The translations under genes were made by a program, and so were the position numbers. The notes beneath the pieces were generated by a model. That model saw only the letters and a program-made list of their open reading frames with translations, searched no databases and had not been told where the DNA came from. Shown piece after piece: positions 5,769-48,064 of a stretch of 64,000 nt of DNA. Every line of letters starts with the position of its first letter. Within the stretch, counting starts at the first letter, position 1. Location: positions 1,674,001 to 1,738,000 of the forward strand of contig NZ_SDHW01000001.1 in the NCBI RefSeq assembly GCF_004118265.1. The letters are read 5' to 3'. This stretch comes from Lacibacter luteus. Its GTDB lineage: Bacteria > Bacteroidota > Bacteroidia > Chitinophagales > Chitinophagaceae.

Positions 5769-5834
5769 ATACTTCTCTTTAGATTTGTATGCATTGAAAT
5801 ACTGAACCCGCAAGCTAAATTCTTAATTCTACAA

Positions 5835-6464: not shown

Positions 6465-6468
6465 GGAA

Positions 6469-6539
6469 AGCCTGTGGCCGATAGTTTTAAGTCATTATTC
6501 AAAAACAGACTAACTACTATCGGCTGTCTAGTAAAGGCT
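6469..6539. terminator. Inverted repeat between convergent genes
   Basis: GCCGATAGT (6477-6485) pairs with ACTATCGGC (6516-6524), and outer AGCCT/AGGCT (6469-6473, 6535-6539) can extend the structure across a loop of about 30 nt. It lies between the stops of the phosphopantetheinyl transferase gene and murB and may terminate both. The right outer arm touches the murB stop codon. No clear T-run, so the function is tentative. Confidence 0.4.
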
Positions 6540-7560: not shown

Positions 7561-7687
7561 GTAATACCAAATTTTAAACTACTTAAGCTTGAAGGCAGGT
7601 TTCTACATTCAGGCTTGTATTATGCCGCAGCAATATGGTTCAACAATACGCATATAGCAAACGGCATGGTTGCAAAATAAAGCATTT

Positions 7688-8344
7688 ATGAACGGACAAA
7701 CAGCAGTTGTAATTGGCGCCACAGGATTAGTTGGATCGGCATTGGTTGAACAACTCTTAAACGATGATGCATTCAGCCGTGTACGCATTCTTGTTCGGCG
7801 TGCTGTAAACCTGCAACATCCAAAGCTGGAAATATGCATTACCGATTTTTCCAACTACGAACATTACCAACAGCAGCTTGGTACCGGCGATTGTATTTTT
7901 TGCTGCATCGGTACTACCATGGCACAGGTAAAAGGCGATAAAGTTTTATACCGCAGTATTGATTTTGATATACCTGTTAATGCTGCCCGTTTTGGCAAAG
8001 CTGCAGGCTTTCAGCAATATCTATTGGTATCGGCCATTGGTGCCAACAGCCGTTCACGCTTTTTTTATACACGATTAAAAGGCGAAGTGGAAGAAGTAAT
8101 TGCAACGTTTGGTTTTAACAGCTTTCATATTTTCCGTCCGTCATTTTTAATGGGCAACCGCATGCAACATCGAACAGGCGAAAGCATCGGGATTACTTTG
8201 TTCCGTATGTTTAAATTTCTTCTGCCATCGAACTATAAAGGTATTAATGGAACTGATGTTGCAAATGCAATGTTGCTGGCAGCTAAGAAAAAGGAATCCG
8301 GTTTACACGTTTATGCTTACAGTAAGATGCTTGAAAAAGCCTGA
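7688..8344 (+). CDS. NAD(P)-binding oxidoreductase (HTATIP2/NmrA-like)
   Basis: An atypical short-chain dehydrogenase of about 218 residues. The start MNGQTAVVIGATGLVGSALV (ATG at 7688, preferred over 7670) places GATGLVG at the N-terminus as in NAD(P)-binding Rossmann proteins. IFCCIGTTMAQVKGDKVLYRSID and YLLVSAIGANSRSRFFYTRLKGEVE are typical of the bacterial HTATIP2/TIP30-like group, as is FHIFRPSFLMGNR. The substrate is unknown. It diverges from murB and precedes the RRM gene. Confidence 0.85.
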   Translation: MNGQTAVVIGATGLVGSALVEQLLNDDAFSRVRILVRRAVNLQHPKLEICITDFSNYEHYQQQLGTGDCIFCCIGTTMAQVKGDKVLYRSIDFDIPVNAARFGKAAGFQQYLLVSAIGANSRSRFFYTRLKGEVEEVIATFGFNSFHIFRPSFLMGNRMQHRTGESIGITLFRMFKFLLPSNYKGINGTDVANAMLLAAKKKESGLHVYAYSKMLEKA

Positions 8345-28549: not shown

Positions 28550-28579
28550 GCAAAAACAAAAAGAGCGGCCTTTGGCCGC
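28550..28579 (-). terminator. Terminator of the exporter operon
   Basis: On the minus strand GCGGCC-AAA-GGCCGC (28565-28579 region) is followed by TCTTTTTGTTTTTGC. It lies 23 nt past the TolC gene stop and ends the leftward exporter operon. Confidence 0.85.
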
Positions 28580-28601
28580 CCAACTCATTCACCGTTTCCT
28601 A

Positions 28602-30008
28602 TCACAAGTTTTTGCCCTGGTAAAAATCAAGCATTCTTGTACGGAAACTGTATTCATATTTCGCCTGCACCAGATTGATCTTTGTACGATCGAGGTTGTT
28701 CTTCGCAATCAGAAATTCAGCTGCATTGATGACACCTGTTTCAAAACGCACTTCAGCTGCACGAAACGATTCTTCGTAATTCAACAACTGCTCATTCAAT
28801 GTTGTTAAACGTTTATGGGCAGCTTCCATGTTTACCCAAGCCTGCTCAATATTCTGCTTTAACTGGTAGAGCGTGTTATCGGCTTCCAGTTCGGTATTTT
28901 TTAAATTAAGTTTTGCCAAACGAACTCTGTTCTTTGTTTGCAGGTTATTAAAAATGGGTATCTGCATATTGATGCCTGTAAAAAAACCGAGGTTATTCTC
29001 CATTTGTTTAAAATAACCGACTGAAGATGAAGAGAAATTCTGCATTTCCCGGTAAACAGGCGTGCGTGCACTTCCGCTTTTAATATAAGTGCCGGTTTCA
29101 ATTTCGGAAACAGTAGTAGGTATAAGTCGTGTAAACAAACTTGAATAACTGCTGCCGGCACTTGCACCTAAACTGATGGTTGGATAATAACCACTCTTCG
29201 CAACCTGTATACTTTTCTCCGCACTTTTAACCCGGTACTTATTGGCTTTTACCAATGCCATATACTCCATTGCCGCTGCAATTACTTCTACCGATGTTTG
29301 TGCATACAGAACATCACTTAGCTGAATGCTTCTTTGTAACTGCAAACCCGATGCAAACGGCATATTCATTAATTGACAAAGTGTAAGTTTCGCCTGTTGT
29401 AAATTGTTTTCAAGATTTACAATCGCAATCAGTTCATTTGCCTGCTGTCCTTTTATATCAGTTAATTGGTAACTGCCTGCCGAACCTTCTTTCACCAACA
29501 CTTCCATTCGTTCGATCTGCTTTTTTGTAACCTGCAACTGCGTACGGGATACCTGCAAAAGATCATCACTCAGCAGCACCTGCATGTAAGCGAGTATAAC
29601 ATTCAGCACAAGATTATCCTGTGCCTGTTTGTAATCCAGTTCTGCGGCTTTATGCGAAAAATTAGTTTGCTGAATTAAATTCTGCAAACGCATACCGTTG
29701 AATAAAACCACACCTGCATCTAAGCCTGCATTGGAAAACGATAGTTGATTATTGGTGTAGGTATTCGTAATAGGATCTACGTTGCGGCCAAAATTGTTAC
29801 CATAATTCCACCGGCTGTTTACGTTAGGCAACAGGTTCAGCCTTGCCTGGTTTTTATTTACCTCTGCAGCCTGTAGTTGCAATCCTGTTTGCTGTACAAG
29901 AATATTCCGTTTCAATGCTGTATCAATACATTGTTTTAAACCCATCTCCTGCGCATGTGTTGTAACAACACAAAGCAATAAAGCCACAGTTAAACTGATG
30001 ATCCGCAT
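28602..30008 (-). CDS. TolC-family outer-membrane efflux protein
   Basis: A 468-residue protein with a signal peptide (MRIISLTVALLLCVVTTHAQ) and two OEP repeats of long helices and strands typical of TolC channels: LPNVNSRWNYGNNFGRNVDP, SFSNAGLDAGVVLFNGMRLQ, INMQIPIFNNLQTKNRVRLA and AEVRFETGVINAAEFLIAKN. It should form the outer-membrane duct of the tripartite exporter encoded upstream. Last gene of the operon, 9 bp after ATPase B and followed by the terminator. Confidence 0.93.
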   Translation of the reverse strand: MRIISLTVALLLCVVTTHAQEMGLKQCIDTALKRNILVQQTGLQLQAAEVNKNQARLNLLPNVNSRWNYGNNFGRNVDPITNTYTNNQLSFSNAGLDAGVVLFNGMRLQNLIQQTNFSHKAAELDYKQAQDNLVLNVILAYMQVLLSDDLLQVSRTQLQVTKKQIERMEVLVKEGSAGSYQLTDIKGQQANELIAIVNLENNLQQAKLTLCQLMNMPFASGLQLQRSIQLSDVLYAQTSVEVIAAAMEYMALVKANKYRVKSAEKSIQVAKSGYYPTISLGASAGSSYSSLFTRLIPTTVSEIETGTYIKSGSARTPVYREMQNFSSSSVGYFKQMENNLGFFTGINMQIPIFNNLQTKNRVRLAKLNLKNTELEADNTLYQLKQNIEQAWVNMEAAHKRLTTLNEQLLNYEESFRAAEVRFETGVINAAEFLIAKNNLDRTKINLVQAKYEYSFRTRMLDFYQGKNL

Positions 30009-30017
30009 AATTCGTTA

Positions 30018-30695
30018 TTAATTGTTGATGTGTTTTTCAATTCTTCCATCAAGTAAATGAATGGTTCTGCCCGCATAGGCGGCATTCTTTTCGCTGTGCG
30101 TAACCTGTATAATGGTTACTCCTTCTTTGTTCAGCTGTGTAAACAACTCCATTATCTCTTCACCTTGCCTGGAATTAAGATTACCTGTTGGTTCATCTGC
30201 AAGAATAAGTTTTGGCTTTGCAATCAATGCACGGGCAATACCAACCAATTGCTGTTGCCCGCCTGAAAGCTGCGAAGGAAAAAGATCTTTCTTACCAACA
30301 ATATTGAAACGATCGAGCATATCGGCCACCATTGCTTTGCGTTCGCTGCTTTTTACATCCTGGTACAACAAAGGCGTTTCAATGTTTTCGTAAACAGTTA
30401 ACTCATCAATTAAATGATATTGCTGAAATACAAAACCAATGTATTGTTTGTACAACTGTGCCCGTTGCTTTTCCTTGAGCTTGTGTACACTTTCGTGCAG
30501 AAAATTATACTCACCTTCATCAAACCCATCAAGCATACCAATTACATTGAGCAAAGTTGATTTGCCCGAACCCGAAGGACCCATGATGGAAATAAACTCC
30601 CCTTCCTGCACCTGCAGGTTGATATCTTTCAATAAAAAAATCCTGTTACCGCCAACAGTAACCCATTTGAACATATTTTTTAACTCTAATAACAT
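30018..30695 (-). CDS. ABC transporter ATPase B (MacB/LolD-like)
   Basis: A 225-residue ATPase, start [21 protein letters not shown] longer reading frame back to 31067 overlaps the permease gene and is not coding. It has [20 protein letters not shown] (Walker A), [16 protein letters not shown] (signature), [16 protein letters not shown] (Walker B and D-loop) and [11 protein letters not shown] (H-switch). Compared with ATPase A, the signature has Leu instead of Arg (QQQLV vs QQQRV) and the D-loop Asp is Asn (GNLN vs GNLD), so coupling or turnover may differ. It starts 11 bp after permease 5 and ends 9 bp before the TolC gene. Confidence 0.93.
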
Positions 30696-30706
30696 TTGCT
30701 TTATAA

Positions 30707-33061
30707 TTATTCGGTTCGTAAACTTTTTACAGGATTTGCAATAGCTGCGTAAATCGCTTTGTATGCAATAGTGATCAACGCTATTGAAAAGATGCAGCAG
30801 AAAAGAATGCACAACATCAACAGGTTTACACCCGGACTGTAAGCAAACAGGCTGATGAAGAAGTAACAAATTGCATAACCCACCGGCAAACCAATTCCTG
30901 CTGCAATAATGATCAGTTTTACAAAACTCTTCGACAGCTCTTTTACAATTACCGGAACTGATGCGCCCATTACTTTTCGTATACCGATTTCTTTTACTCT
31001 TTTTTCTGTGTGATAGGTTACAATACCCAGCAAACCCATCAATGCAATGATCAATACAACAACACAAAACATGCCCATAAACTTCATATCTCTGCCGGGG
31101 AAATAGCGGTCGTACATTTCTTTTTGATAATTGGAAAAAGCCAACTCTTCATGCGGATGATATTTTTTCCAGACCGCAGCTATCTCCGATTTAAACACCG
31201 CATCATCCACTTCTGTTTTTGTTTTAATACTTAACAGATGAAATTGCGAAGGGTTATACTGCAGCACTAATGGGTTTGTTGCAAACTGGTAAATATAATA
31301 GCAGAAATTTTTAACCACACCGTTAATGATCACTTCACGATCGTTATTCAACAGGATGGTTTTACCAACAGCTTCCTGCGGAGTACCAAGTCCGAGAGTA
31401 GTAAGTAATTGTTCATTTACCACTACAAAGTTTGAAACAGAATCGCCGTTAGATGCAGGTAAATTATTACCTGCTATAAACTGCAGCTGCATATTGCTGA
31501 TGAACTCTGCATTGGCTGCATAATAACTTGCTTCTTTATTTTGCTCCTGTTTATTTTTTTTGATAGCAGCCTGTGCGGTAGTACCACCAAAAGCTGTTGA
31601 CACCAAACCGATGCGTTCGATATTTTTATTTGCTGTCAGATCCTGCTGCAACAACCGATAATCACCTTTCACCGATACATTGTAAATATGTTTTCGATTG
31701 AAATTATCGTTATCAGTTGCCATATAGCGGAACTGGTTATAAAATGTAGCCATTACAAAAATGAAACAGGAACTTGCAACAAACTGAATTACTACAAGAC
31801 TGTTGCGTAAACCCATTCTGCCGAATGTAGATGGAGCAATTGTTCCCTTCAACACTTTTGCCGGTTGAAAGCGTGAAAGGATGCGTGCCGGAATAGCGCC
31901 TGCCAATGCGCCAATGAAAATACTGAAGATGATAAACGTTCCCCACAATACAAACTGGTTATCTACTTTCCAGGTAAACCAGTTTACATAACTGAACTGC
32001 TCCATCAGCTTCAACACAATAAAGCCAAGTGCCAATGACAGCAACGCCACCAACACCGCTTCACAAATAAACTGTCCAACCAATTGATGACGCAATGCAC
32101 CCGCAACTTTTCTTACGCCAACTTCTTTTGCACGACTGAGCGAACGTGCCAATGTTAGGTTTACATAGTTAAATCCCGCAAGTAACAGCAGTGCTAATGC
32201 AAATCCAAAGTTCACCGCAAGATCCAGGATCGACTCAACATAAGAATTGCCACGCAGATCGTCAAAATCGGGAGCAACCGATGTTATTGCCTGCTCTCGG
32301 AAAGTCAGATTTTCTTTTGTTGCATTTACAATAGACTTTGTATTGATCTTTGCTGCAACAGCTGTTAAAGCAGCATCAAGATTTGCTTTGTTTGCAGTTG
32401 GCTTCAACAGCACATAGGTAAATCCATTAAGGGATGTAAGTGCAGTATCTTTTGAAAACTTATTGTAGGTAGCCATCGACACCATTACATCGCTACGCAG
32501 ATGTGTATTGCGTTTGTAGGGTTTTAATACACCTGTTACGGTAAAATCGCCGTAACCGGGATGCGTAAGCACTTTACCTACAGCTTCTGTTGTGCCAAAA
32601 AAAGCAAGTGCTTTTTCTTCGGTTAATACTAAACTGTTGGGTTCAACCGGTGCAGTGCCGGATGCCAGTTTAAATCCAAACACATCAAAAAAAGCCGGCT
32701 CTACATAGATGCTGTTTACATCGAGTGTTTTAATACGATTGTTCAGCTCCCATCCAAATTCACGCACAACAAAGATTGCTTTTTCAATCGACGGATAATC
32801 CTGTTTCAGTTGTTCGGCTACTGTTTGTGGCGATAAAGCATATTTGATTTTTCCACCAACATTATCTGTTACATCGGTAATAATGCGGTAGGTACGATCG
32901 GGATAAGGATGGAAATTATCATACTCATAGGCACTCTGCACCTGCATTAAACTCAGCAATGCAAAAGGTATTGCAAGTCCAAGCCCTAAAATGTTGATGA
33001 TGGAGAATAATTTATTCTTCCACAAATTGCGCCACGCTACTTTAAAATAATTCCGGATCAT
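30707..33061 (-). CDS. FtsX/MacB-type ABC permease 5
   Basis: A 784-residue double permease: N-terminal TM (NILGLGLAIPFALLSLMQV), periplasmic MacB-PCD domain (about 45-260), FtsX block with RSLSRAKEVGVRKVAGALR and three TM helices (about 285-400), a TM near 430, a second periplasmic domain, and a C-terminal FtsX block with TEKRVKEIGIRKVMGAS. It ends ANPVKSLRTE, a tail shared by nearly all five permeases. MacB-type proteins use mechanotransmission to push periplasmic substrates through TolC rather than carrying them across the inner membrane. The fifth of the array is the most diverged near the N-terminus. Confidence 0.92.
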   Translation of the reverse strand: MIRNYFKVAWRNLWKNKLFSIINILGLGLAIPFALLSLMQVQSAYEYDNFHPYPDRTYRIITDVTDNVGGKIKYALSPQTVAEQLKQDYPSIEKAIFVVREFGWELNNRIKTLDVNSIYVEPAFFDVFGFKLASGTAPVEPNSLVLTEEKALAFFGTTEAVGKVLTHPGYGDFTVTGVLKPYKRNTHLRSDVMVSMATYNKFSKDTALTSLNGFTYVLLKPTANKANLDAALTAVAAKINTKSIVNATKENLTFREQAITSVAPDFDDLRGNSYVESILDLAVNFGFALALLLLAGFNYVNLTLARSLSRAKEVGVRKVAGALRHQLVGQFICEAVLVALLSLALGFIVLKLMEQFSYVNWFTWKVDNQFVLWGTFIIFSIFIGALAGAIPARILSRFQPAKVLKGTIAPSTFGRMGLRNSLVVIQFVASSCFIFVMATFYNQFRYMATDNDNFNRKHIYNVSVKGDYRLLQQDLTANKNIERIGLVSTAFGGTTAQAAIKKNKQEQNKEASYYAANAEFISNMQLQFIAGNNLPASNGDSVSNFVVVNEQLLTTLGLGTPQEAVGKTILLNNDREVIINGVVKNFCYYIYQFATNPLVLQYNPSQFHLLSIKTKTEVDDAVFKSEIAAVWKKYHPHEELAFSNYQKEMYDRYFPGRDMKFMGMFCVVVLIIALMGLLGIVTYHTEKRVKEIGIRKVMGASVPVIVKELSKSFVKLIIIAAGIGLPVGYAICYFFISLFAYSPGVNLLMLCILFCCIFSIALITIAYKAIYAAIANPVKSLRTE

Positions 33062-33089
33062 TTTTGATAAGGTTCTTTTTACTGATGAG

Positions 33090-35474
33090 TTATTCTGTTC
33101 GTAAACTTTTAACCGGCTTAGCCAATGCTGCTCTTATGGCCTGGTACGAAACTGTAAGCAATGCCAGCAATACAATACCTGCTCCTGTAGCTGCAAACAA
33201 CCACCAGCTGAGTGCAGCCCTGTAAGGATAATTCTGCAGCCACTTATCTGCAAGCAGCCATGCAACAGGTATGGCAATACAAAGTGAAACCAATACGAGC
33301 TGTAAAAAATCTTTCGACAAAGCCTTTACAATTGTTGTTACAGATGCGCCCAATACTTTTCGTACACCAATTTCTTTCAAGCGTTTTTCTGCTGACAATA
33401 CCGATAACCCAAACAAGCCGATGCAGGAAATAAAAATGGTAAGAAAAGCACCAAACAATAACATCTTTTTCCATTTGGCTTCTGCTTCGTATTGGCGTTG
33501 GTTACTGATGTCTTTAAACTCGTAACTGTAAGGTTGTACAGGCAATAACCGTTTATAAACCTGTTCAACATATGGTAAGACAGCTGCTGCCGATCCTTCT
33601 TTAATACGTATAACTGCCAACCCGAAATTATTCTCGTCGTTACACAGCAACTGTGGTTTAATTACTTCGCTAAGTGCCGCATAGTGATGATCTTTCACCA
33701 CACCCACAACCGTGTACTTCTTTTCTCTATACCAGAAATCAACCACCTGTCCAACAGGTTCTTTCCATCCGGCTGCTTTTACAAACGCTTCGTTCACCAT
33801 TACTGCAGAACTTGTATCGGAAGTAAATGAACGGGAGAAGTTGCGTCCCTGCACAACAGGTATCTTATACAAAGGCAGATAATCAGCATCAACCCAATCC
33901 ATCGTAAACTCAATTTCTTTATTGCCATTCACTCTTGCCAATGTTCCATTAAATCCGTTATTGCGGACAGCAACCTGTTCTACATTTGGATTTTTTAATA
34001 ACTCCTGGCGAAAAACTGCAATTTCATTTTTTGAGATGTTGGGCACCGTAAGCACATGTTTATCGTTATACCCCAGATCTTTCGATACAAGAAAATGAAA
34101 CTGCCTGTACATAACAGTTGTTGCTATAATAAGAAGAGTGGCTAAAGAGAACTGCAGTACCACTAACGATTTTTGTAAATAATTCTTTCCTGCTAACCGG
34201 AAACGATTGTATAATGTTTGCACGGGATTAAAACCTGAAAGCACCAACGCCGGATAAAATCCTGCCAAAAACCCTGTAACAAAAAACAATGCTGCATAGC
34301 CGCTTATCAATTGCAGATCGAACAGATAAGCAAGCGACAACGCTTTGTTGGAAAGATCGTTAAAGAAGGGCAGTAACAATTGTGCAATGCCCAACCCCAA
34401 CACAAATGCAACAAAACAAATAATGTACGATTCGCCTAAAAACTGCGCAATGAGTTGGCGGCGATCGCTACCAACAACTTTGCGTACGCCAATTTCTTTT
34501 GCACGTTTTAACGAACGGGCTACTGTAAGGTTTACAAAATTGATACAGGCGATCAACAAAATAAACAATGCAATGCCCGACAGAATATAAGAATACATCG
34601 GATTGCTGGCGCCAACCATTCCGTTATCGGCACGATAATCCTTACTCAGGTGTATATCGGTATACGGTTGCAGCATGTATTCTGATTTGGCTTTGAAATT
34701 GTATTTCTCTGCCACTATCTTAATCATTTCCTTTGCATCTGTTTCATAAAACCGCATCATCTTTTTTTCTACCTGTTTTACATCTGCACCCGGTGCAAGT
34801 ACAACAAATGTGTTAAGAAAGAAGTTGAACCAATTCATACGATCCGAAATTTCATCGGGCCGTAATTCCATTTTCGTGAGCATCTGAAACTTAATAGAAG
34901 AATTCTGCGGGCAATCTTTTGCAACGGCTGTAACAGTATATGGTTTAAATGTACCATTGCGTTGCAACTTTAATGTTTTACCAACTACATCTGCAGAACC
35001 AAAAAATTTACGGGCAACCGTTTCGCTCAACACTACAGCATCGGGTTGTTGTAAAGCTGTTTTACCATCGCCATGCAACAATGGAAACTGCATCATGGAA
35101 AAGAAATTACTATCTACAAAATGCGCTTCCTGCCCAAGCACTTCCGTTCCTTTTTTAATATTTACATAGTCGCCCTGGAAACGTACAAACGAAACTATCT
35201 CCGGTACGCCCGATGCAAAAGCAGGTCCGTGAAAACTGCCGGTGTTTCCGCTTTGCATTGCAATACTTCCATCCGGATTTACTTCTTTGCTTACAATACG
35301 GTAAATATTGTTTACACCGGGAAGAAAGCGATCGTAACTCACTTCGTCCTTTGTGTATAAAAGAATCAGCATGGCGCATGCAAGCCCCATACTCAATCCG
35401 GCAATATTGATGAACGAATACACTTTGTTCTTCGAAAAATTCCGGAAAGCTGTTTTTAGATAATTTTTAAACAT
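33090..35474 (-). CDS. FtsX/MacB-type ABC permease 4
   Basis: About 794 residues from MFKNYLKTAFRNFSKNKVYS; an ATG at 35504 adds ten unlikely residues. Same layout as its neighbours: N-terminal TM (NIAGLSMGLACAMLILLYT), periplasmic domain, FtsX block with RSLKRAKEIGVRKVVGSDRR, TM, second periplasmic domain, FtsX block with SAEKRLKEIGVRKVLGAS, and tail KPVKSLRTE. A 45-bp gap separates it from permease 3, the widest in the permease run. Substrate unknown. Confidence 0.92.
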   Translation of the reverse strand: MFKNYLKTAFRNFSKNKVYSFINIAGLSMGLACAMLILLYTKDEVSYDRFLPGVNNIYRIVSKEVNPDGSIAMQSGNTGSFHGPAFASGVPEIVSFVRFQGDYVNIKKGTEVLGQEAHFVDSNFFSMMQFPLLHGDGKTALQQPDAVVLSETVARKFFGSADVVGKTLKLQRNGTFKPYTVTAVAKDCPQNSSIKFQMLTKMELRPDEISDRMNWFNFFLNTFVVLAPGADVKQVEKKMMRFYETDAKEMIKIVAEKYNFKAKSEYMLQPYTDIHLSKDYRADNGMVGASNPMYSYILSGIALFILLIACINFVNLTVARSLKRAKEIGVRKVVGSDRRQLIAQFLGESYIICFVAFVLGLGIAQLLLPFFNDLSNKALSLAYLFDLQLISGYAALFFVTGFLAGFYPALVLSGFNPVQTLYNRFRLAGKNYLQKSLVVLQFSLATLLIIATTVMYRQFHFLVSKDLGYNDKHVLTVPNISKNEIAVFRQELLKNPNVEQVAVRNNGFNGTLARVNGNKEIEFTMDWVDADYLPLYKIPVVQGRNFSRSFTSDTSSAVMVNEAFVKAAGWKEPVGQVVDFWYREKKYTVVGVVKDHHYAALSEVIKPQLLCNDENNFGLAVIRIKEGSAAAVLPYVEQVYKRLLPVQPYSYEFKDISNQRQYEAEAKWKKMLLFGAFLTIFISCIGLFGLSVLSAEKRLKEIGVRKVLGASVTTIVKALSKDFLQLVLVSLCIAIPVAWLLADKWLQNYPYRAALSWWLFAATGAGIVLLALLTVSYQAIRAALAKPVKSLRTE

Positions 35475-35519
35475 AGTATGTACAGTTTTGCAGCGCCAAC
35501 ACACTGCAGATGATAAGGT

Positions 35520-37946: not shown

Positions 37947-37957
37947 ACCATATCGTT

Positions 37958-40390: not shown

Positions 40391-40401
40391 GATGATAGGT
40401 T

Positions 40402-42831
40402 TTATTCAGTCCGCAAACTTTTTACAGGATTTTGAGTAGCTGCTCTAACCGTATTAAAGCTGATGGTAACAAAGGCGATGATGATGGCTGTGAGTGCAAC
40501 CAATACAAACATCCACCATTCAAGTTTAACACGATAAGGAAACGATTCGAGCCATTTACTCATGGCCAACCAGGATATAGGTGTGGCAATAAGCACAGCA
40601 ATTAATACCAGCTTTAAGAAATCTTTGGAGATGAGGAATGAAAGCGTTGGCACATCGGCTCCCAATACTTTACGCACACCAATTTCTTTTACCCTTTGCT
40701 GAATAATGAGCAATACCATAGCCAGCAATCCGAGGCAGGAAAGTACAATAGAAATAATTGCAGCAATGCTGAACAGGAACGACATCATTTTTTCCTGCTT
40801 GTACCAGTTCTCTACATTCTCATCAACAAACGAACCTTTAAATTCCCGACCGGGTTCAAGTAAAGCCATCTCTCTTTGCAATGCATCCATTACAGCTTCC
40901 CTGTTTTGTGCATTGGTACGGATAAAGCAATACCGTACCGGTGTGTTTTTGGTATAGATCATTGCAAGCGGCTCTTTCTTTTCACGCAGGGAATACATAT
41001 GAAAATCGGGTATAACAGCAACAATGTTCCATGCAGGTGCCCCGCTATCTACCAGTATATGCTGACCTATCAGTTGTTTTTCGTTAAACTGTTTTGCAGA
41101 ACTTTCGGTAAGTATTACATGCTGCAAAGTATCTGCCGCATAACTCACATCAATATCATTTCCTTCAATTGGTTTTATGCCGAACGTTTGCAGAAAATCT
41201 GCATCAACAAAATTGATGTTGGTTGTAACGTTCGCTCCTTTATAGCCAAACGAATTGGTTAGCTTGGCAGAACTTCCATCGAGCCCTACACCAACATTGA
41301 TGTGACTGCCCGAAACAGACAACACACCGGGATTGGAAGCTAAACGTGTACGGAGTTTTTCAATATTCTTTCTTCCGTTTTCGGGTTTATGAAACGGAAT
41401 GCTGATGAGGTACTCCTGGTTTAAACCCAAATCGGCAGTTTGTAAATGTTTAAACTGTTGGTAGATGATGAATGTGCAACTGATCATAATACAGGCAATA
41501 ACAAACTGCACTACAATTAATGCGCTGCGTATAAAACTTTTTCGCTTTAAGGTTACTTTTCCTTTTAATGTTTCCACTACCTGGAACTTACTCATCAACC
41601 ACGAAGGATAGCCGCCTGCAATGAACGAAACGAAAAGCAATAAGCTGAATGCAAGCAAGAGAAACGCCGGTTCCAGCATCATCTCTGCCAATGGCATGCC
41701 GCCACCTGTTTGTTGCTGTATTACTGCTACCAGCACTTTTGCAAACAACATCGATAACACAAAAGCAACAAAGCAAAGCAGAAAACTTTCGCTCCACAAT
41801 TGTGCAAACAAACCTTCTTTGGCTGCACCCAAACATTTACGCACACCAATTTCCCTGCTGCGTGTAAATGCATTAGCCAGATTAATGTTTACAAAATTGA
41901 AACAGGCTATGAGTATAATGAGCAATCCAACCAGCAGTATCACATATATTTCCGCTTTGTTTACTCCATTGCCCAAACCACTGATGCGTGGCGAAAAATG
42001 CAGCTCTGTTAACGAAAGTAAACGGGTGGCAAAAATATCGCCACGGTTATCGGGCTTTGCTCCTTCACGCTTCAGGCTTTCGTACCAACCGGGTAAATTT
42101 TTCTTGTTACATACAATCAACTGTTTCTCGGCCTGCTCCTGTGTTGCATTTTCTTTCAGCATTACAAAAACAGCATGGTGCTGATTATCCCAATTGTTTT
42201 TTTCCGATGCATAACTACCTGCGTTTTCTATACGGGCCAAAGCATCAAACCGAAGGCTGCTGTTGTTTGGAAAATTTTTAAGCACAGCAACAACCGTCAT
42301 CTCTTTCAACTTACTACCGCTGTAAGGCGATTGAATTGTTTTACCAATTGGATCTTCATTACCAAAAATCCGCTTTGCAGCAGCTTCGGTCAATACAACA
42401 TCGGTAAGATTGGTTAACGGGTTAGCAGCATTTCCTTTTGCAACAGGAAAGCTGAACATCTGCAGAAAATCTTCATCTACCAGCATGGTGCTGATGTCAA
42501 CCTCTTTTTCTTTGTACACAACAAGGTTGCTTCCATATAAATAACGTGTTGCTTTATCAATAGCAGGAACTTCTGCTTTAAACATTGGCGCTGCAGGATA
42601 GCCAAATACATTTCCTATTTGCGAGCCCGACTCCCTGTTAAATACCTGGTAAGCCTGGAATATTTTTTTGCGGTTAGCATGGCTTTTATCGTAACTGAAC
42701 TGTCCGTAAACAGCCAGCAACACCATAATGCCAATGGTGAAGCCGATAAACAAACCGGCGAGGTTAATACCTGTATGAAATTTGTTTTTAAACAAACTGC
42801 GCCAGGCTATTTTAATGTAGTTTTTTAACAT
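40402..42831 (-). CDS. FtsX/MacB-type ABC permease 1
   Basis: An 809-residue double FtsX permease from MLKNYIKIAWRSLFKNKFHT. The first TM is NLAGLFIGFTIGIMVLLAVY; the coupling motifs are AFTRSREIGVRKCLGAAKEG and QQRVKEIGVRKVLGADV; the tail is NPVKSLRTE. It directly follows ATPase A (32-bp gap). The N-terminal FtsX motif carries a Cys where the paralogues have Val, a small private change. Likely the first partner of ATPase A. Confidence 0.92.
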   Translation of the reverse strand: MLKNYIKIAWRSLFKNKFHTGINLAGLFIGFTIGIMVLLAVYGQFSYDKSHANRKKIFQAYQVFNRESGSQIGNVFGYPAAPMFKAEVPAIDKATRYLYGSNLVVYKEKEVDISTMLVDEDFLQMFSFPVAKGNAANPLTNLTDVVLTEAAAKRIFGNEDPIGKTIQSPYSGSKLKEMTVVAVLKNFPNNSSLRFDALARIENAGSYASEKNNWDNQHHAVFVMLKENATQEQAEKQLIVCNKKNLPGWYESLKREGAKPDNRGDIFATRLLSLTELHFSPRISGLGNGVNKAEIYVILLVGLLIILIACFNFVNINLANAFTRSREIGVRKCLGAAKEGLFAQLWSESFLLCFVAFVLSMLFAKVLVAVIQQQTGGGMPLAEMMLEPAFLLLAFSLLLFVSFIAGGYPSWLMSKFQVVETLKGKVTLKRKSFIRSALIVVQFVIACIMISCTFIIYQQFKHLQTADLGLNQEYLISIPFHKPENGRKNIEKLRTRLASNPGVLSVSGSHINVGVGLDGSSAKLTNSFGYKGANVTTNINFVDADFLQTFGIKPIEGNDIDVSYAADTLQHVILTESSAKQFNEKQLIGQHILVDSGAPAWNIVAVIPDFHMYSLREKKEPLAMIYTKNTPVRYCFIRTNAQNREAVMDALQREMALLEPGREFKGSFVDENVENWYKQEKMMSFLFSIAAIISIVLSCLGLLAMVLLIIQQRVKEIGVRKVLGADVPTLSFLISKDFLKLVLIAVLIATPISWLAMSKWLESFPYRVKLEWWMFVLVALTAIIIAFVTISFNTVRAATQNPVKSLRTE

Positions 42832-42863
42832 GAGAATGATGATAAGGGTGATAAGGCTTAAGG

Positions 42864-43541
42864 TTATACCAGTATGTTTTCAGTAACCGTTTGTCCGTCG
42901 AGCATACGAATAATACGGTGACTGTATTTAGCATCATGCTCACTATGTGTAACCATGATGATGGTTGTGCCTTGCTCGTTTAAATCGGTAAGCAGCTGCA
43001 TTACTTCGTTACCGTTTGATGAATCGAGGTTACCCGTTGGTTCATCGGCAAGAATTAATTTAGGTTTGTTAACAACGGCCCTTGCTACTGCCACACGTTG
43101 CTGCTGACCACCACTTAATTGCTGCGGATAGTGATTGCGGCGATGCATGATCTGCATTTTATCCAGCACTTCTTCTACACGTGTTTTACGATCGGCTGCT
43201 TTTACTCCGGTGTAGATGAGTGGAAGTTCTACGTTTTCAAAAACAGTGAGTTCATCAATAAGATTAAAACTCTGGAACACGAAGCCGATGTTATGTTTAC
43301 GCAAATCGGCACGCTTCCGTTCGTTAAAGCCGGCTACTTCAATTCCATTGAACATAAAGCTGCCGCCATCAGCATCATCGAGCAAACCAACAATGTTTAA
43401 CAAGGTTGATTTACCGCAACCGCTCGGGCCCATTATTGCAACAAATTCACCTTCCTTTATTTCAAATGAAAGTTTATTCAATGCCACCGTTTCCACTTCT
43501 TCGGTACGGTAATATTTCTCCAGGTTTGTAATCTTGATCAT
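42864..43541 (-). CDS. ABC transporter ATPase A (MacB/LolD-like)
   Basis: A 225-residue ATPase beginning MIKITNLEKYYRTEEVETVA, with all motifs standard: IMGPSGCGKSTLLNIVGLL (Walker A), NIGFVFQSFNLIDELT (Q-loop), LSGGQQQRVAVARAVV (signature), [16 protein letters not shown] (Walker B and D-loop) and IIMVTHSEHDA (H-switch). It should energise the FtsX-type permeases encoded downstream. It follows the small peptide gene by 24 bp. Confidence 0.95.
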   Translation of the reverse strand: MIKITNLEKYYRTEEVETVALNKLSFEIKEGEFVAIMGPSGCGKSTLLNIVGLLDDADGGSFMFNGIEVAGFNERKRADLRKHNIGFVFQSFNLIDELTVFENVELPLIYTGVKAADRKTRVEEVLDKMQIMHRRNHYPQQLSGGQQQRVAVARAVVNKPKLILADEPTGNLDSSNGNEVMQLLTDLNEQGTTIIMVTHSEHDAKYSHRIIRMLDGQTVTENILV

Positions 43542-43565
43542 ACTATGATATGGTTTTACTGTTTA

Positions 43566-43736
43566 TTAAAGTAACATGTGATTAAAAGGAATCAGTTCTG
43601 TAAACGCAGGTGCAGCTTTCGTTTTTTGCATTGCCGCCTGTACTGTTTTGTTTTTATTGCAGGCGTTTGTTGGGGTTACCAATCCATCGCCCGCAAACAA
43701 GAAGAACAACAACAGAAATAAACTATTCGGTTTCAT
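43566..43736 (-). CDS. 56-residue putative secreted peptide in exporter operon
   Basis: An open frame of 56 codons with ATG at 43736, 11 bp after the adaptor stop, and TAA 24 bp before ATPase A. The N-terminus MKPNSLFLLLFFLFAGDG looks like a signal peptide or signal anchor. The rest (about 37 residues, one Cys, KNKTVQAAMQKTKAAPAF) is basic and Ala-rich. I recognise no family, and the lipobox is poor (PTNAC). The tight placement inside the operon and the operon-like spacing argue that it is translated. It could be the exporter's substrate, a signalling peptide or a small subunit; this is inference. Confidence 0.6.
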   Translation of the reverse strand: MKPNSLFLLLFFLFAGDGLVTPTNACNKNKTVQAAMQKTKAAPAFTELIPFNHMLL

Positions 43737-43747
43737 ATTGCTTGTTT

Positions 43748-45001
43748 TTACTTTTTCAAAATCAACTCCTGCATAGCGCCGTAAGTTTCGTAACTGCTGG
43801 TTACTATTTTATCGCCGGGTTTTAACCCTTGTACTATTTCGTAATAGTCGGGGTTTTGGCGGCCCAACTGTATATCTACTTTGTAAGCTGTTTTACCGTT
43901 TTCACTTACTTTAAATATCCAGTTGCCACCTGTTTGCTGGTAGAAACCTCCCTTGGGTAAAAGCAATGCTTTTGTTTCATCGCTCAGCGCCAAACGTATT
44001 TGCAACGTTTGTCCACGACGGATGCTTTCCGGAACCGCACCGGTAAATTCCATATCAACCTGGAAGCGGCCATTCAACACCTGTGTATACACTTTTTTAA
44101 TTTTCAGCTGATAGTTTTTACCGGCTACATCACAATTACCAACAAGACCAGTAAATATGCGGCTGATGTAATGCTCATCAATATCAACACGTACTTTAAA
44201 ACCGCTCATTACATCTATCTGCCCTAAACGCTGACCTTTATTTTTGCTCTCACCAATTTCTGCATCAAGCGAAGTAAGCTGCCCGTCAACAGGAGCACGC
44301 ACAATCAGATCGCCCACTTTTTTGCGCATGAGTGTAAGTGTGCGTTTCATTTGCTGATAGCTTTCTCCTGCCTGGTCAACCTGTTGCTTCATACTTACAG
44401 CATCGGTTTTCATGATCTGCTCCGTAAGCTTTTTCCTGCGCAATTGATAGTCGTATAAATTTTTACTGCTTTGGAATTCCTGTGCACCAATAACTTTTTG
44501 GTCGAAGAGTTTTTTGTTGAGGTTGTAAACACGTTCTGCTTCTTTCAATGCATTATCCACTTCCGCATCCTGGTTCTGGCGATTGATAGAATTTTGCTCG
44601 GCATTGTTTTTACTTATCTGCATTTGCGTTAACACATTAAACACCTGTGTTTCCTGGTTGGCCAACTGCAGTTCAAGATCGGTGTTGGATAAACGGAGAA
44701 TGGGTTGATCTTTTTTCATCATAGCACCATCTTCCACATATTTTTCTTCTACACGACCACCTTCCATTGCATCGAGATAAATAGTGCTGATGGGTAACAC
44801 CACACCATTAACCGGTATAAATTCCTGGAAGCTGCCTGTTTTAATTTCGCTGATGGTAATACGTTCGGTATCTACATTCAATCTCGATTTGCCCGAAGTA
44901 AAATAAATGCTGCCTGCTATTAACGCAACAATACCTGCTATACCTGCAATGGTTAAGAGGCGTTTGGTGCTCCATTTCTTTTTTGCTATAACTCTGTCCA
45001 T
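43748..45001 (-). CDS. HlyD-family periplasmic adaptor
   Basis: Membrane-fusion protein linking the inner-membrane permeases to TolC. The 417-residue protein has one N-terminal TM (LLTIAGIAGIVALIAGSIYF), a first lipoyl half (GVVLPISTIYLDAMEGGRVE), a long coiled-coil hairpin (about 105-215, Gln/Asn/Lys-rich), the second lipoyl half (IVRAPVDGQLTSLDAEIGES) and beta-barrel and membrane-proximal domains (GLKPGDKIVTSSYETYG). First gene of the leftward operon, downstream of the control region shared with the two-component genes. Confidence 0.94.
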   Translation of the reverse strand: MDRVIAKKKWSTKRLLTIAGIAGIVALIAGSIYFTSGKSRLNVDTERITISEIKTGSFQEFIPVNGVVLPISTIYLDAMEGGRVEEKYVEDGAMMKKDQPILRLSNTDLELQLANQETQVFNVLTQMQISKNNAEQNSINRQNQDAEVDNALKEAERVYNLNKKLFDQKVIGAQEFQSSKNLYDYQLRRKKLTEQIMKTDAVSMKQQVDQAGESYQQMKRTLTLMRKKVGDLIVRAPVDGQLTSLDAEIGESKNKGQRLGQIDVMSGFKVRVDIDEHYISRIFTGLVGNCDVAGKNYQLKIKKVYTQVLNGRFQVDMEFTGAVPESIRRGQTLQIRLALSDETKALLLPKGGFYQQTGGNWIFKVSENGKTAYKVDIQLGRQNPDYYEIVQGLKPGDKIVTSSYETYGAMQELILKK

Positions 45002-45366
45002 GATTCTAAAATACGTTTCTGCTTGTATAACTGTTACAGAAAAACCACCCGGTTGGCTGAGGACCGGATGATCGGTCTGTTACAGTGAAAAGGTTTAATG
45101 ATAAGGAACTGTCCGTTACCTGTGAAAGCCGTGCCAACTCATCTTATGTATGAAAATCAAGGCTTTACTGTATAGCCGTTGTTTTAACTGTTCGCTTTTG
45201 CAACAACAGGTGTACGGTTTTGATACAGTTTCTGTACAGCCATTTTTTTCTTAGTTATTTATTGTTAATGCTTTACGATTATGGTAAACTTGTGGCAGTG
45301 AAAGCAAAGCCGGCAGATTGTTATTGAGAAGCTGCTATTCACAATTCACTATTGACCATTCAGCAA
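45002..45366. promoter_or_regulatory. Divergent control region: palindromes and sigma-54-like element
   Basis: No gene here. CTGTTACAG occurs at 45031-45039 and 45077-45085, and CTGTACAG at 45232-45239; each is a perfect palindrome. On the minus strand TTGGCACGGCTTTCAC (45122-45137) has a perfect sigma-54 -24 part (TTGGCACG), but its -12 part is TCAC, not TTGC. On the plus strand ATTG (45261-45264), 20 bp and TAAACTTG (45285-45292) form a weak housekeeping promoter for the regulator. The palindromes are candidate sites for the response regulator. Confidence 0.5.
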
Positions 45367-46731
45367 ATGAGTTTAAAAAATTCACGCATACTTGTTATTG
45401 ATGATGATACCGATGTGCTCACAGCAGTGCGCCTGCTGTTGAAAACGGAAGTAAAAGAAGTAGTAACAGAAAAGAACCCGGAAAACATCCGTCACCTTTT
45501 ATCGAAAAATGAGTTCGATCTTATTTTACTCGATATGAATTTCAACAGTACCATCCACACAGGTAATGAAGGTTTGTACTGGTTAAGAAAAATCAAAGAG
45601 TTTAATAACTCCCCTGCTGTGGTTATGATAACTGCTTATGGTGATATTGATCTGGCTGTGCGTTCGTTAAAAGAAGGTGCATCTGACTTTATGATAAAAC
45701 CCTGGCACAACGAAAAACTCATCGGCACCATTGGCGAAGCCATTAAAAAACGAAACAGTTTAAAAACAAATACCAGTGCTGTAATACGTTCTGCCGATTC
45801 CATCATTGGCACACAACTGCTTGGCGAAAGCGAAGCAATGAATGATATTTTTTTGAAGATCGAAAAAATTGCACCTACCGATGCCAATGTGTTGATACTT
45901 GGTGAAAACGGTACGGGTAAAGATCTGATCGCACAGGCCATTCAGCAAAAATCGTTGCGCAACAACAAACCATTTATTAAAGTAGATGCCGGAGCATTAA
46001 CTGAAAGCTTGTTTGAAAGCGAACTGTTCGGTCATAAAAAAGGAGCGTTTACCGATGCAAGAGAAGACCGCATCGGTCGTTTTGAAGCAGCAAACGGTGG
46101 TACAATTTTTTTAGATGAGATTGGCAACATCAACTTACAACAACAGGCCAAACTTTTATCTGTATTGCAAAACAGGCAGGTAATCAAACTCGGCAGCAAC
46201 GAACCTGTGCCCATCGATATACGTTTGATCTGTGCAACCAATCTTCCTTTAGCTGAACTGGCAAACGAAGCACGCTTCCGGAAAGATCTTATCTATCGCA
46301 TCAACACTGTAGAAATAACGGTACCTCCTTTGCGCAACCGCAAAGAAGATATTCAGCTGCTGGCACAACACTATGCCAATCTTTATGCAGATAAGTACAT
46401 CAAACCAAAGATGGAACTGGATAAAAAAGCAGTTGAGAAATTAACGACCTATCATTTTCCGGGTAATGTGCGTGAACTTCAATACAGTATTGAGCGGGCA
46501 GTGATCATGGCCGATGGCGAATCGTTACAGGCCGACGATATTATTTTCTCTCCTATTGAAACAGCAAGACAGCAGGAAGATGAACAACACGATTTAAAAT
46601 TAAGCAGCGTGGAAAAAAACACGATCCTGCGTGTAATTGAAAAACACAACGGCAACATTACCAAAGCTGCAAAAGAACTGGGTTTAACAAGAACAGCATT
46701 GTACAGAAGATTAACGAAGTATGATATTTAA
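45367..46731 (+). CDS. NtrC-family sigma-54-dependent response regulator
   Basis: A 454-residue activator. The ATG at 45367 (MSLKNSRILVIDDDTD) is preferred over an in-frame TTG at 45352. Receiver domain: acidic pocket VIDDD, phospho-acceptor Asp 56 (LILLDMNF) and Lys 111. AAA+ domain: GENGTGK (179-185), GAFTDA (226-231, the sigma-54 contact loop, usually GAFTGA), FLDEIGN (248-254). A Fis-type HTH ends the protein (NGNITKAAKELGLTRTALYRR). It should activate a sigma-54 promoter; the divergent exporter operon is the obvious target. The gene overlaps its kinase gene by 11 bp. Confidence 0.95.
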   Translation: MSLKNSRILVIDDDTDVLTAVRLLLKTEVKEVVTEKNPENIRHLLSKNEFDLILLDMNFNSTIHTGNEGLYWLRKIKEFNNSPAVVMITAYGDIDLAVRSLKEGASDFMIKPWHNEKLIGTIGEAIKKRNSLKTNTSAVIRSADSIIGTQLLGESEAMNDIFLKIEKIAPTDANVLILGENGTGKDLIAQAIQQKSLRNNKPFIKVDAGALTESLFESELFGHKKGAFTDAREDRIGRFEAANGGTIFLDEIGNINLQQQAKLLSVLQNRQVIKLGSNEPVPIDIRLICATNLPLAELANEARFRKDLIYRINTVEITVPPLRNRKEDIQLLAQHYANLYADKYIKPKMELDKKAVEKLTTYHFPGNVRELQYSIERAVIMADGESLQADDIIFSPIETARQQEDEQHDLKLSSVEKNTILRVIEKHNGNITKAAKELGLTRTALYRRLTKYDI

Positions 46732-48064
46732 ACAATACGAAGGACGTTTATTGATACGTGTACTGCTCCTGTTTGTGGTAGTATCGTTTATTGCATGGTT
46801 GTTGGTGAACGCTTATTTTCTCTATATTATTTTTGTTGTGCCTGTTTTGTTATACCAGTTGTACGATTTGTATAGTTTATTAAAAAAAGCACAGGACGAA
46901 GTAAAAGAGTTTGCCGAAAGCGTACACTATCGTGATTTCTCCCGCTACTTTAATGTAAAGCAGGCACCTGCTGAGTTACAGCCTTTGCGTGCAGGTTTTA
47001 ACGAAATCAACAGTACATTTAAAGTAATTACCAAAGAACGGGAAACGCAATATGTTTACCTGCAAAAAATATTAGAGTTGGTTGATACAGGTATTCTTTC
47101 ATACGAAGTAAACGATGGAGAAATTGCCTGGATGAATGAAACGTTTAAACGCTTGCTGGGTATTCCTTATTTAAAAACCATTCATAGTTTAGAAAAAAGA
47201 GATGAACAGTTGTACAAAGAAGTGCTCTCTCTAAAATCCGGTGAGAACAGGATCGTAAAAGCAAATACCGACAAATCGGTATTGAAATTATTATTATCAG
47301 CAACTGCATTTCAAACCGATGGAAAAGTATTTAAACTGATTGCTTTTCAGAATGTAAACGAAGCTCTGGATGAAACAGAAGCACAGGCTTGGCGAAAGCT
47401 GCTGAGTGTAATGACGCATGAGATCATGAATTCTGTTGCACCGATTTCTTCCCTGGCCGATACATTAAAAAACCGTTTGCAGCTTTCTACCGCACATTTG
47501 CAAAACAACGACGGTTCTGTTGAAGATCTGGAGTTGGGTATCGAAACCATCAAACGCCGCAGCGAAGGTTTGCTGAAGTTTGCAGAAACATACCGCAACC
47601 TCAACAAGATCACCACACTCAATGTAAAAAAAATACAGGTGCTGGATCTTTTCGAAAACCTGCACCAGTTAATGCAGCCCACACTCGAACAAAAAAATAT
47701 TGAGCTGGAAATTATTTTAAAAGATCCGGCTATTGCATTGGAAGTAGATATGCATTTAATTGAACAGGTGCTTATCAATCTTTTGGTGAATGCTATCGAA
47801 GCTGTAAAAGATAAAACCGAACCACGTATTGTTTTATCGGCTTACGAATCGGGCGATCATAAAACAGTTATTAAAGTTGCAGACAATGGTGTGGGTATGG
47901 ATGAAGAAGTGATGGACAAGATCTTTATCCCATTCTTCAGTACACGAAAAACAGGCAGTGGCATCGGGCTAAGCCTTTGTAAACAGATTATGTTACTGCA
48001 CAAAGGAAGTATACAGGTACAAAGCCGCCCCGGCGAAGGCACTGCATTTATGCTGCTGTTCTGA
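46721..48064 (+). CDS. NtrY-like sensor histidine kinase
   Basis: A 447-residue membrane kinase. Two close TM helices fill residues 10-45 (LLLFVVVSFIAWLLVNAYFL, YIIFVVPVLLYQLYDLY) with almost no periplasmic loop, so it likely senses a signal in or near the membrane, or an internal one. A PAS-like region spans about 105-220. The H-box MTHEIMNSVAPI (His 233) is of the NtrY/HPK4 type. The ATPase part has NLLVNAIEAVKD, VADNGVGM and FSTRKTGSGIGLSL. The 11-bp overlap with the regulator gene implies coupled translation. Confidence 0.93.
   Translation: MIFKQYEGRLLIRVLLLFVVVSFIAWLLVNAYFLYIIFVVPVLLYQLYDLYSLLKKAQDEVKEFAESVHYRDFSRYFNVKQAPAELQPLRAGFNEINSTFKVITKERETQYVYLQKILELVDTGILSYEVNDGEIAWMNETFKRLLGIPYLKTIHSLEKRDEQLYKEVLSLKSGENRIVKANTDKSVLKLLLSATAFQTDGKVFKLIAFQNVNEALDETEAQAWRKLLSVMTHEIMNSVAPISSLADTLKNRLQLSTAHLQNNDGSVEDLELGIETIKRRSEGLLKFAETYRNLNKITTLNVKKIQVLDLFENLHQLMQPTLEQKNIELEIILKDPAIALEVDMHLIEQVLINLLVNAIEAVKDKTEPRIVLSAYESGDHKTVIKVADNGVGMDEEVMDKIFIPFFSTRKTGSGIGLSLCKQIMLLHKGSIQVQSRPGEGTAFMLLF

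Follow-up and report, generated by a model that had tools for sequence, protein, structure and literature searches.

Work on type VII (FtsX/MacB/Bce) ABC systems has usually dealt with a single ATPase paired with a single permease. The locus described here raises the question of what an exporter operon does with five permease genes, and whether these five form a fixed set. It occupies positions 28563-48064 of the window, i.e. the 64,000-nucleotide stretch of Lacibacter luteus (Chitinophagaceae) DNA under study, and comprises a minus-strand run from 45001 to 28602 (adaptor, 56-aa mini-ORF, ATPase A, permeases 1-5, ATPase B, TolC) and a divergent regulator pair. Its features are:

46721..48064, plus strand: sensor kinase, 447 aa, with a transmembrane (TM) hairpin, a loop of few residues, a conserved YRDFS linker and HATPase_c
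45370..46731, plus strand: NtrC-type response regulator with REC, sigma-54 AAA+ domain (GAFTDA loop) and Fis-type HTH (Pfam)
45121..45136, minus strand: sigma-54-type promoter element TGGCACGGCTTTCACA, 135 nt upstream of the adaptor ATG, with identical letters in L. cauensis
43748..45001, minus strand: periplasmic adaptor of HlyD/RND_mfp type, 417 aa (profile matches)
43566..43736, minus strand: mini-peptide, 56 aa, with a signal-peptide-like start, a variable Cys-bearing linker and a hydrophobic C-terminal tail
42864..43541, minus strand: ATPase A, 225 aa, canonical LSGGQQQR signature (ABC_tran)
40402..42831, minus strand: permease 1, 809 aa, its family at the level of at least 50% comprising the window and L. 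cauensis only (Pfam, clustering)
37958..40390, minus strand: permease 2, 810 aa, member of family 0 with 52 sequences in 45 loci (clustering, AlphaFold model)
35520..37946, minus strand: permease 3, 808 aa, family of 4 (Pfam, clustering)
33090..35474, minus strand: permease 4, 794 aa from the ATG (GTG at 35504 possible), family of 10 (Pfam, clustering)
30707..33061, minus strand: permease 5, 784 aa, the most divergent, family of 3 (Pfam, clustering)
30018..30695, minus strand: ATPase B, 225 aa from 30695, signature LSGGQQQL (ABC_tran)
28602..30008, minus strand: TolC-type outer-membrane duct, 468 aa (OEP)
28563..28581, minus strand: intrinsic-terminator-like, G+C-rich hairpin of 8 pairs followed by a T run (hairpin scan)

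ORF calls and Pfam bear out the gene content, order and strands given in the first-pass annotation, with OEP, ABC_tran (twice), HlyD_3, Response_reg plus Sigma54_activat plus HTH_8, and HATPase_c across the non-permease genes. The gaps of 9-45 bp are likewise correct (9-32 bp from the listed ORF starts, 45 bp before permease 4 from the ATG at 35474), as is the overlap of regulator and kinase, which measures 11 bp; an upstream TTG start of the regulator at 45352 is possible. The 349-aa ORF at the position of ATPase B is a TTG extension reaching into permease 5, and since this overlap masks ATPase B in gene calling, the window locus was assigned by hand to the closed loci. The hairpin at the operon end, described as a terminator, is present and terminator-like; 32 such sites were counted in the region versus 19.9 expected in shuffles. 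Internal sigma-70-type promoters numbered 40 versus 49.5 expected, by a pattern that is uninformative in this phylum. The data support an exporter that is complete in itself, with a dedicated sigma-54 two-component system, one motor/adaptor/duct set and several permeases with differing periplasmic domains. Five operon proteins compared with the PADLOC models gave no membership in known anti-phage defence: the mini-peptide, permease 2 and the adaptor had no match, and the regulator and kinase matched defence models solely via AAA+ or kinase regions.

Each of the five permeases contains two MacB_PCD and two FtsX stretches, and the AlphaFold model of permease 2 shows 8 long membrane helices and two periplasmic core domains. 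Among the fold matches listed for this model, YbbP and BceB come nearest, with YbbP in first place and LolC/LolE also ranked; the rms deviations over the full length are large (8-11 Å), so these matches point to a shared overall layout rather than to close relatedness. Since the five are mutually only 26-38% identical, we regard them as old paralogues. A whole-genome search with PF12704 (MacB_PCD) placed 10 of 14 matches in the locus; the other four lie in frames of 416-452 aa, so this search revealed no second duplicated permease elsewhere in the genome. The permease G+C content (0.401-0.412) falls inside the range of the other operon genes (0.389-0.425), and composition therefore gives no sign of recent import or foreign origin.

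For comparison, 61 stitched loci were assembled from the window, 40 of 70 matching family genomes and 20 of 120 matching phylum genomes, chosen mainly for long contigs and spread, and 66 of 80 named loci (L077-L142) were used, the last 14 being omitted. Four duplicate loci were dropped from all counts except, unless stated, those of the mini-ORF, and clustering was limited to permeases of at least 700 aa. Related genomes share a conserved chassis, kinase-regulator divergent from adaptor-ATPase A and, downstream, ATPase B-TolC, built around a hypervariable permease cassette. The regulator pair co-occurs with the exporter in other genomes: kinase and regulator are adjacent in 53 of the 61 loci, and the regulator stands divergent beside the adaptor in 55 (unassigned ORFs ignored). 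Roughly half of the loci seen carry ATPase B; in 30 of 32 its LSGGQQQ is followed by L instead of R.

The idea of five permeases conserved as a set, in contrast, fails outside L. cauensis, which carries all five in the same order at 89-93% identity. The 27 closed loci hold 1 to 10 permeases (up to 13 in open loci), and 426 permeases cluster into 139 families. Single permeases occur in genomes G108, G106, G061, G479 and G346, so permease variety is not essential. Where adaptor identity is 75-85%, identity is about 90% for ATPase A and about 38% for the best permease match. Loci with 10-kb flanks are truncated, and this lowers the apparent sharing of permeases; among 38 closed pairs in this adaptor range the mean shared fraction is 0.35. 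One ATPase-adaptor chassis is well conserved across the family while nearly the whole permease set changes from one related species to the next, and the ten genes are one instance of an open cassette array. Variation among permeases is concentrated in the periplasmic regions.

Several simple origins of the array were considered. Fixed slots are ruled out by the spread of family positions and by nearest neighbours, which in closed loci with at least three permeases keep their slot no more than in shuffles (first 0.27 vs 0.17±0.10; middle 0.60 vs 0.65±0.06; last 0.09 vs 0.18±0.10). Pairwise family order is slightly above shuffles (236/305 = 0.77 vs 0.70±0.02, the highest of 300 shuffles being 0.757), which may stem from relatedness of the loci. 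Recent tandem duplication is ruled out for most permeases: among 293, the best identity within the locus has a median of 38% versus 58% to other genomes, and only 8 in-locus pairs exceed 60%. Simple vertical inheritance also fails. Permease identity tracks adaptor identity only partly (pooled Spearman 0.41, 1464 pairs; significant in families 0, 1, 5, 6 and 7, not in 2, 3 and 4), and the presence or absence of most families resembles shuffled labels on a chassis tree of 35 of the 61 loci, built by a quick method with 12 of 32 inner branches starred. In G330, a genome from another family, some permeases are 55-68% identical to those of genomes whose adaptor is about 40% identical, a sequence pattern that looks like transfer.

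The control genes are more uniform. The regulator combines REC, a sigma-54 AAA+ domain and a Fis-type HTH as in NtrC, and a sigma-54 gene is present in the genome. Upstream of the adaptor the -24 half of the promoter is strong (TGGCAY-N3-6-TT in 94/123 loci vs 2/123 on the reverse strand) and the -12 half weak (in a stricter scoring, 18/92 attain 9, against 5 on the reverse strand and 1.6 in shuffles). The window kinase lacks a periplasmic sensor domain, and all 44 kinases of 420-480 aa have a bare TM hairpin with no insert of more than 6 residues over the first 110 window columns; regulator-adjacent kinases are at most 488 aa long, and those below this size range are mostly cut by region ends. 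A promoter survey reports that COG0577 'antimicrobial peptide' permeases are enriched for sigma-54 promoters in Bacteroidia (PMC12316311); the accessible passages of that survey make no mention of chassis, cassette turnover, kinase type or mini-peptide.

The chassis-cassette architecture is well supported; the function is inferred. We consider it somewhat better than an even bet (probability about 0.55) that the locus is an envelope-stress detoxification module of Bacteroidota, made of the chassis and exchangeable permease cassettes. The TM-hairpin kinase and the NtrC-type activator would fire one sigma-54 promoter. The chassis would supply the hardware, namely a MacA-like adaptor, the TolC duct and ATPase A, which ATPase B accompanies in roughly half of the loci seen. 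The cassettes would supply a variable number of duplicated permeases of predicted YbbP/BceB fold, each apparently a fusion of two MacB-like halves in which the segments that dock to the ATPase are conserved and the periplasmic domains vary. Each permease may be specific for its own amphipathic compound, be it an antimicrobial peptide, a lipid or a stray signal peptide, which it would take out of the periplasm or the inner membrane with the common ATPases and hand to adaptor and TolC; working permeases would inform the kinase, as in Bce flux sensing. Under selection, species might gain, lose and reshuffle permeases to fit the compounds they meet. The conserved motor, adaptor and control with species-variable permeases suggests a changeable defence kit against envelope toxins. 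If the permeases truly share the motor, they offer a natural panel for learning permease substrate choice. Many 'ABC transporter permease' genes of Bacteroidota that lack an assignment could also find their place in loci of this kind.

More tentatively, the locus might be a recognition repertoire: one motor-duct chassis with more than 100 interchangeable permease families as a species-specific receptor array, a sensor-less kinase reading transporter activity, the mini-peptide as ligand or cargo, and ATPases A and B as an asymmetric motor.

The mini-peptide, mentioned only in passing in the earlier reading, deserves more weight. It has no Pfam match at E 0.1, but of the 43 gaps of 180-460 nt between adaptor and ATPase A, 37 contain a mini-ORF (34 of 40 once three duplicate loci are removed), with none on the reverse strand and 0.04 expected in shuffles that preserve single-base composition only, and its dN/dS against L. 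cauensis is about 0.29. Judged by sequence, it looks like a real, fast-evolving, predicted secreted family, one without a Pfam model that is hereby brought into view. The same counts speak for a dedicated peptide exporter, in which the mini-peptide and perhaps other small peptides are the cargo and the permeases handle different peptides. Darobactin is carried out by DarBCD, MacAB-TolC has been reported to carry a periplasmic peptide, and among curated models ATPase A matches DarD best and the adaptor DarC. However, a looser detector found no mini-ORF in 81 of 122 loci, all holding adaptor and ATPase A as the inclusion condition; the DarB, DarC and DarD scores all stay under the equivalog cut-offs; the genes of the window operon include no recognised RiPP enzyme, and neither do the 20 of 75 extra ORFs inside other operons that were tested by Pfam. 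We consider such an exporter unlikely.

Less likely still is lipid or lipoprotein trafficking, i.e. LolCDE/YbbAP-like extraction from the inner membrane by permeases specialised per lipid. In its favour, YbbP leads the listed fold matches of the permease model and LolC/LolE rank among them, and LolD is one of the proteins that ATPase A resembles. Against it, ATPase A scores 225 where the LolD cut-off is 307.75, and adaptor plus TolC, sigma-54 control and fast repertoire turnover would fit a housekeeping role poorly. Plain MacAB-type multidrug efflux with near-neutral permease gain and loss and no permease-substrate matching has the building blocks of MacAB-TolC, and neutral exchange would also give a family distribution like shuffled labels, but we hold it to be improbable given the rarity of recent duplicates and the periplasmic focus of variation, although weaker constraint there would produce the latter too.

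The locus can finally be compared with known systems. No description of a chassis plus array was recognised among the papers listed by searches of the open-licence PMC literature. RNA-seq of a Flavobacterium columnare sppA mutant shows, in the accessible part of the report, induction of a macA/yknY/macB/tolC set (PMC13236525). This set was rejected as direct evidence: the macB_1 forward primer given there reads LSLLGVTIG (translated by eye). We take this to be the classical single-unit MacB type, and the set is therefore probably another operon. A further paper, PMC5780487, was uninformative. Toastrack-type genes, as in LiaFSR-LiaX systems, lie inside 10 of the 61 operons and were not found in the other 51 loci (some incomplete) by seeds taken from inside operons and searched in the fetched stretches; PF13349 has no match in the L. 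luteus genome, and no operon showed an obvious LiaF/PspC gene. YbbAP of E. coli shows 13% identity, and its operon is not known to have an adaptor, TolC or two-component partner. ADOP (TIGR03434) shares the duplicated MacB_PCD-FtsX layout at 235-344 bits (permease 1 286.7, permease 2 344.1, permease 3 271.5, permease 4 296.8, permease 5 235.5), below the cut-off of 622.3; according to descriptions of ADOP no ATPase gene lies next to them, whereas the permeases here share an operon with two. DarBCD gives the best curated match for ATPase A (DarD, 304.9/375 bits) and adaptor (DarC, 158.7/450), and the five permeases match DarB at 95-169/700 bits; unlike DarBCD, the locus has a multi-permease array and sigma-54 control, and no biosynthesis gene was recognised in the window operon. 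With MacAB-TolC it shares adaptor, TolC, MacB_PCD and FtsX permease halves and a MacB-like ATPase, but the ATPase is a separate gene rather than an N-terminal domain fused to one permease unit (225/966 bits at best against the MacB model), the permease is duplicated and present in many copies, and there is a second ATPase. Bce modules (BceAB-BceRS) have the sensor-less kinase in common with the locus, which differs in its diderm host, its adaptor and TolC, and its several permeases per operon with two periplasmic core domains each. The Bce response regulator is OmpR-type, and the one found here is NtrC-type with Sigma54_activat. We know of no earlier diderm, sigma-54 example of Bce-like transporter-coupled signalling; if the motor is shared, this locus would be the first. 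Most likely it is the equivalent, in a diderm and under sigma-54 control, of a Bce-type detoxification module, with a MacA/TolC duct attached and with permeases that can be exchanged.

Our analysis describes the exporter locus at 28563-48064 as a conserved chassis (kinase, regulator, adaptor, ATPase A, ATPase B and TolC) that carries a variable array of permease cassettes. The first-pass annotation read a minus-strand run of adaptor, mini-peptide, ATPase A, permeases 1-5, ATPase B and TolC with a divergent regulator and kinase; on re-reading of the window, its gene list, order, strands and gaps all proved correct. Pfam and NCBIfam identify the TolC duct as OEP, the adaptor as HlyD/RND_mfp, two ABC ATPases, one NtrC-type regulator, one histidine kinase and, in each of the five permeases, two MacB_PCD and two FtsX stretches. 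The five permeases share 26-38% pairwise identity, and a whole-genome PF12704 search found no further duplicated permease elsewhere. The genome holds one sigma-54 gene, and the adaptor is 97% identical in the same-genus genome of L. cauensis. The next ORF past the operon (just below 28510, minus strand) has a start that resembles an ORF6N-type protein.

Adaptor matches at E<=1e-40 occur in 70 of 147 family genomes and 120 of 395 phylum genomes. Regions were taken from 60 genomes (40 of these 70 and 20 of these 120) plus 66 of 80 named GTDB loci; synteny was counted in 61 stitched loci including the window, ignoring unassigned ORFs. The kinase adjoins the regulator in 53/61, the regulator lies beside the adaptor and divergent from it in 55/61, and adaptor and ATPase A are consecutive in 57/61. 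ATPase B was seen in 31 stitched loci (32 counting the window), followed by TolC in 25; two genomes (G061, G065) have TolC with no ATPase B seen. In some distant loci (genomes G479 and G346) the fetched stretch showed nothing of the system beyond kinase, regulator, adaptor, ATPase A and a single permease. Locus L185 of genome G055 has its TolC-ATPase B end, together with a gene of Toastrack type and two additional permeases, in the opposite orientation to the adaptor end, which would fit a split of the locus by inversion.

The permease array turns over far more freely. Closed loci (27, window and L. cauensis included) carry 1 to 10 full-length permeases (median 5), and open loci up to 13. At 50% reciprocal-best identity, the 426 permeases of 123 loci fall into 139 families, 78 of them singletons. 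Window permease 2 belongs to the commonest family (52 sequences, 45 loci); the families of permeases 4, 3, 5 and 1 have 10, 4, 3 and 2 members. Among genomes whose adaptors share 75-85% identity (480 pairs), median identity was 90% for ATPase A, 80% for ATPase B, 74% for the regulator, 64% for the kinase, 45% for TolC, which is thus also variable, and 38% for the best permease match. Genome G034, for example, matches the window at 80% (adaptor) and 90% (ATPase A), but its three permeases reach only 38-40% identity to their best-scoring matches in the window. On a chassis tree (adaptor plus ATPase A, 35 loci), eight families present in 16, 18, 10, 12, 6, 8, 7 and 7 loci require at minimum 9, 11, 9, 10, 6, 6, 5 and 5 changes, versus 11.9, 12.0, 8.7, 9.8, 5.7, 7.2, 6.4 and 6.5 in 100 sets of shuffled labels; for none of the eight did the observed number fall below the shuffled range. 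Permease slots are not kept between loci, and family order is weakly kept. Best matches of permeases have a median identity of 38% within their own locus versus 58% in other genomes, and fresh duplication was rejected as the source of most permeases. The arrays thus appear to sample a common pool of old permease families by gain and loss. Transfer is probably an additional source: permeases of locus L212 (G330) are 55-68% identical to Chitinophagaceae ones while the adaptors are only ~40% identical, so that cassettes may have passed between families. A PadR gene lies between the L212 permeases, and a second one was recognised by eye.

In 94/123 loci the 200 nt preceding the adaptor contain the pattern TGGCAY-N3-6-TT (other strand 2/123; resampled sequence 3.4+-2.0, highest of 100 sets 9); upstream of permeases it occurs in 16/293. 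In the window it is located here:

45136-45121, minus strand, candidate sigma-54-type site upstream of the adaptor (TGGCAY-N3-6-TT pattern)

A stricter 11-position score gave a smaller excess because the -12 half is weak: scores >=9 in 18/92 loci (other strand 5, shuffled 1.6) and >=8 in 52/92 (13 and 11.1). The usual sigma-54 contact loop reads GAFTGA; among 107 orthologues of the regulator (window 45370-46731), 84 carry GAFTDA, four GAFTGA, and 19 gave no pattern match. The kinase is a TM hairpin without periplasmic domain in all 44 orthologues of 420-480 aa, and a YRDFS-like linker is present in 82 of the 99 kinases scanned.

Both ATPases retain their motifs: Walker A in 122/122 (ATPase A) and 32/32 (ATPase B), Walker B in 121/122 and 30/32, and the H-loop pattern in 121/122 and 28/32. 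The two proteins of one locus share a median identity of 50%. The residue after LSGGQQQ is the canonical R in 122/122 ATPase A and L in 30/32 ATPase B (window 30018-30695 and orthologues). This fixed difference in sequence suggests separate roles, an asymmetric pair being one possibility.

The gap between adaptor and ATPase A has a content of its own. Mini-ORFs (ATG, 45-90 codons, signal-peptide-like start, end <=60 nt from ATPase A) were detected in 37/43 gaps of 180-460 nt (34/40 without three duplicates), versus 0 on the reverse strand and 0.04 in shuffles; a looser detector found none in 56 gaps under 180 nt. The peptides are strongly diverged, retaining a signal-peptide-like start, a linker that frequently contains Cys (at least one after residue 22 in 34/37) and a hydrophobic tail with, by eye, often a Pro ~8-10 residues before the end. 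The window copy (43566-43736) has no Pfam match; of its 56 codons, 10 differ from the L. cauensis copy at the first position, 8 at the second and 17 at the third (dN 0.17, dS 0.59). Judged by sequence, this is a fast-evolving, putatively secreted family. Gaps of 465-720 nt hold, in 21/22 cases, an antisense ORF of 23S_rRNA_IVP type (by eye; the one tested with Pfam is PF05635), and when the 61 stitched loci were searched with phmmer, nine of ten such hits (8 loci) fell in this gap. These genes occur there in many genera (L065 of G007, L064 of G028, L051 of G055, L210 of G327, L110 and others) and look like recurrent insertions.

Pfam was run on 20 of 75 extra ORFs (>=110 aa) inside operons: five lie above the PF13349 (Toastrack) cut-off and a sixth narrowly misses it, DUF2807 and S41 peptidases (the latter in L050 of G103 and L057 of G067) account for two each, and the remainder gave other matches or none. 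With phmmer homologues added, Toastrack-type genes occur in 10/61 loci, each between chassis genes, that of G055 in the inverted end. Genome-wide PF13349 is uncommon, with any match at E<=0.001 in 22/48 genomes and none at that threshold in the window's genome. Excerpts of PMC10269926 describe LiaX, whose C-terminus is PF13349, as binding daptomycin and signalling via LiaFSR; those of PMC11237479 tie Toastrack to envelope-stress and ABC operons, but as a presumed intracellular domain. In L206 of G476 (5447-8320), a permease close to a distant chassis copy carries 'permease prefix domain 1' and matches ADOP at 418 bits, short of the cut-off; its neighbour is, by eye, a PadR-like ORF, a possible link to the HAAS-PadR permeases in the excerpted PMC11237479.

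The best explanation, with a probability of roughly 55%, is that the locus encodes an envelope detoxification module under sigma-54 control whose permeases can be exchanged. What the analysis shows is its gene content and synteny, the turnover of its permeases, the sigma-54-type promoter element, the topology of the kinase and the fold predicted for a permease. ATPases, adaptor and TolC would be common to all permeases, the kinase would sense transporter activity, the substrates may be amphipathic toxic compounds, and selection would drive permease turnover. Export of peptides is an unlikely alternative, and traffic of lipids or lipoproteins somewhat less likely again. A plain pump with neutral exchange of permeases we consider improbable.

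In searches of the open-access literature we recognised no description of this chassis-plus-array. Known relatives exist for every operon protein but the mini-peptide, and the link to sigma-54 control is partly predicted in print already; an independent promoter survey (PMC12316311, in excerpt) describes sigma-54 promoters for the COG0577 permeases of Bacteroidia.
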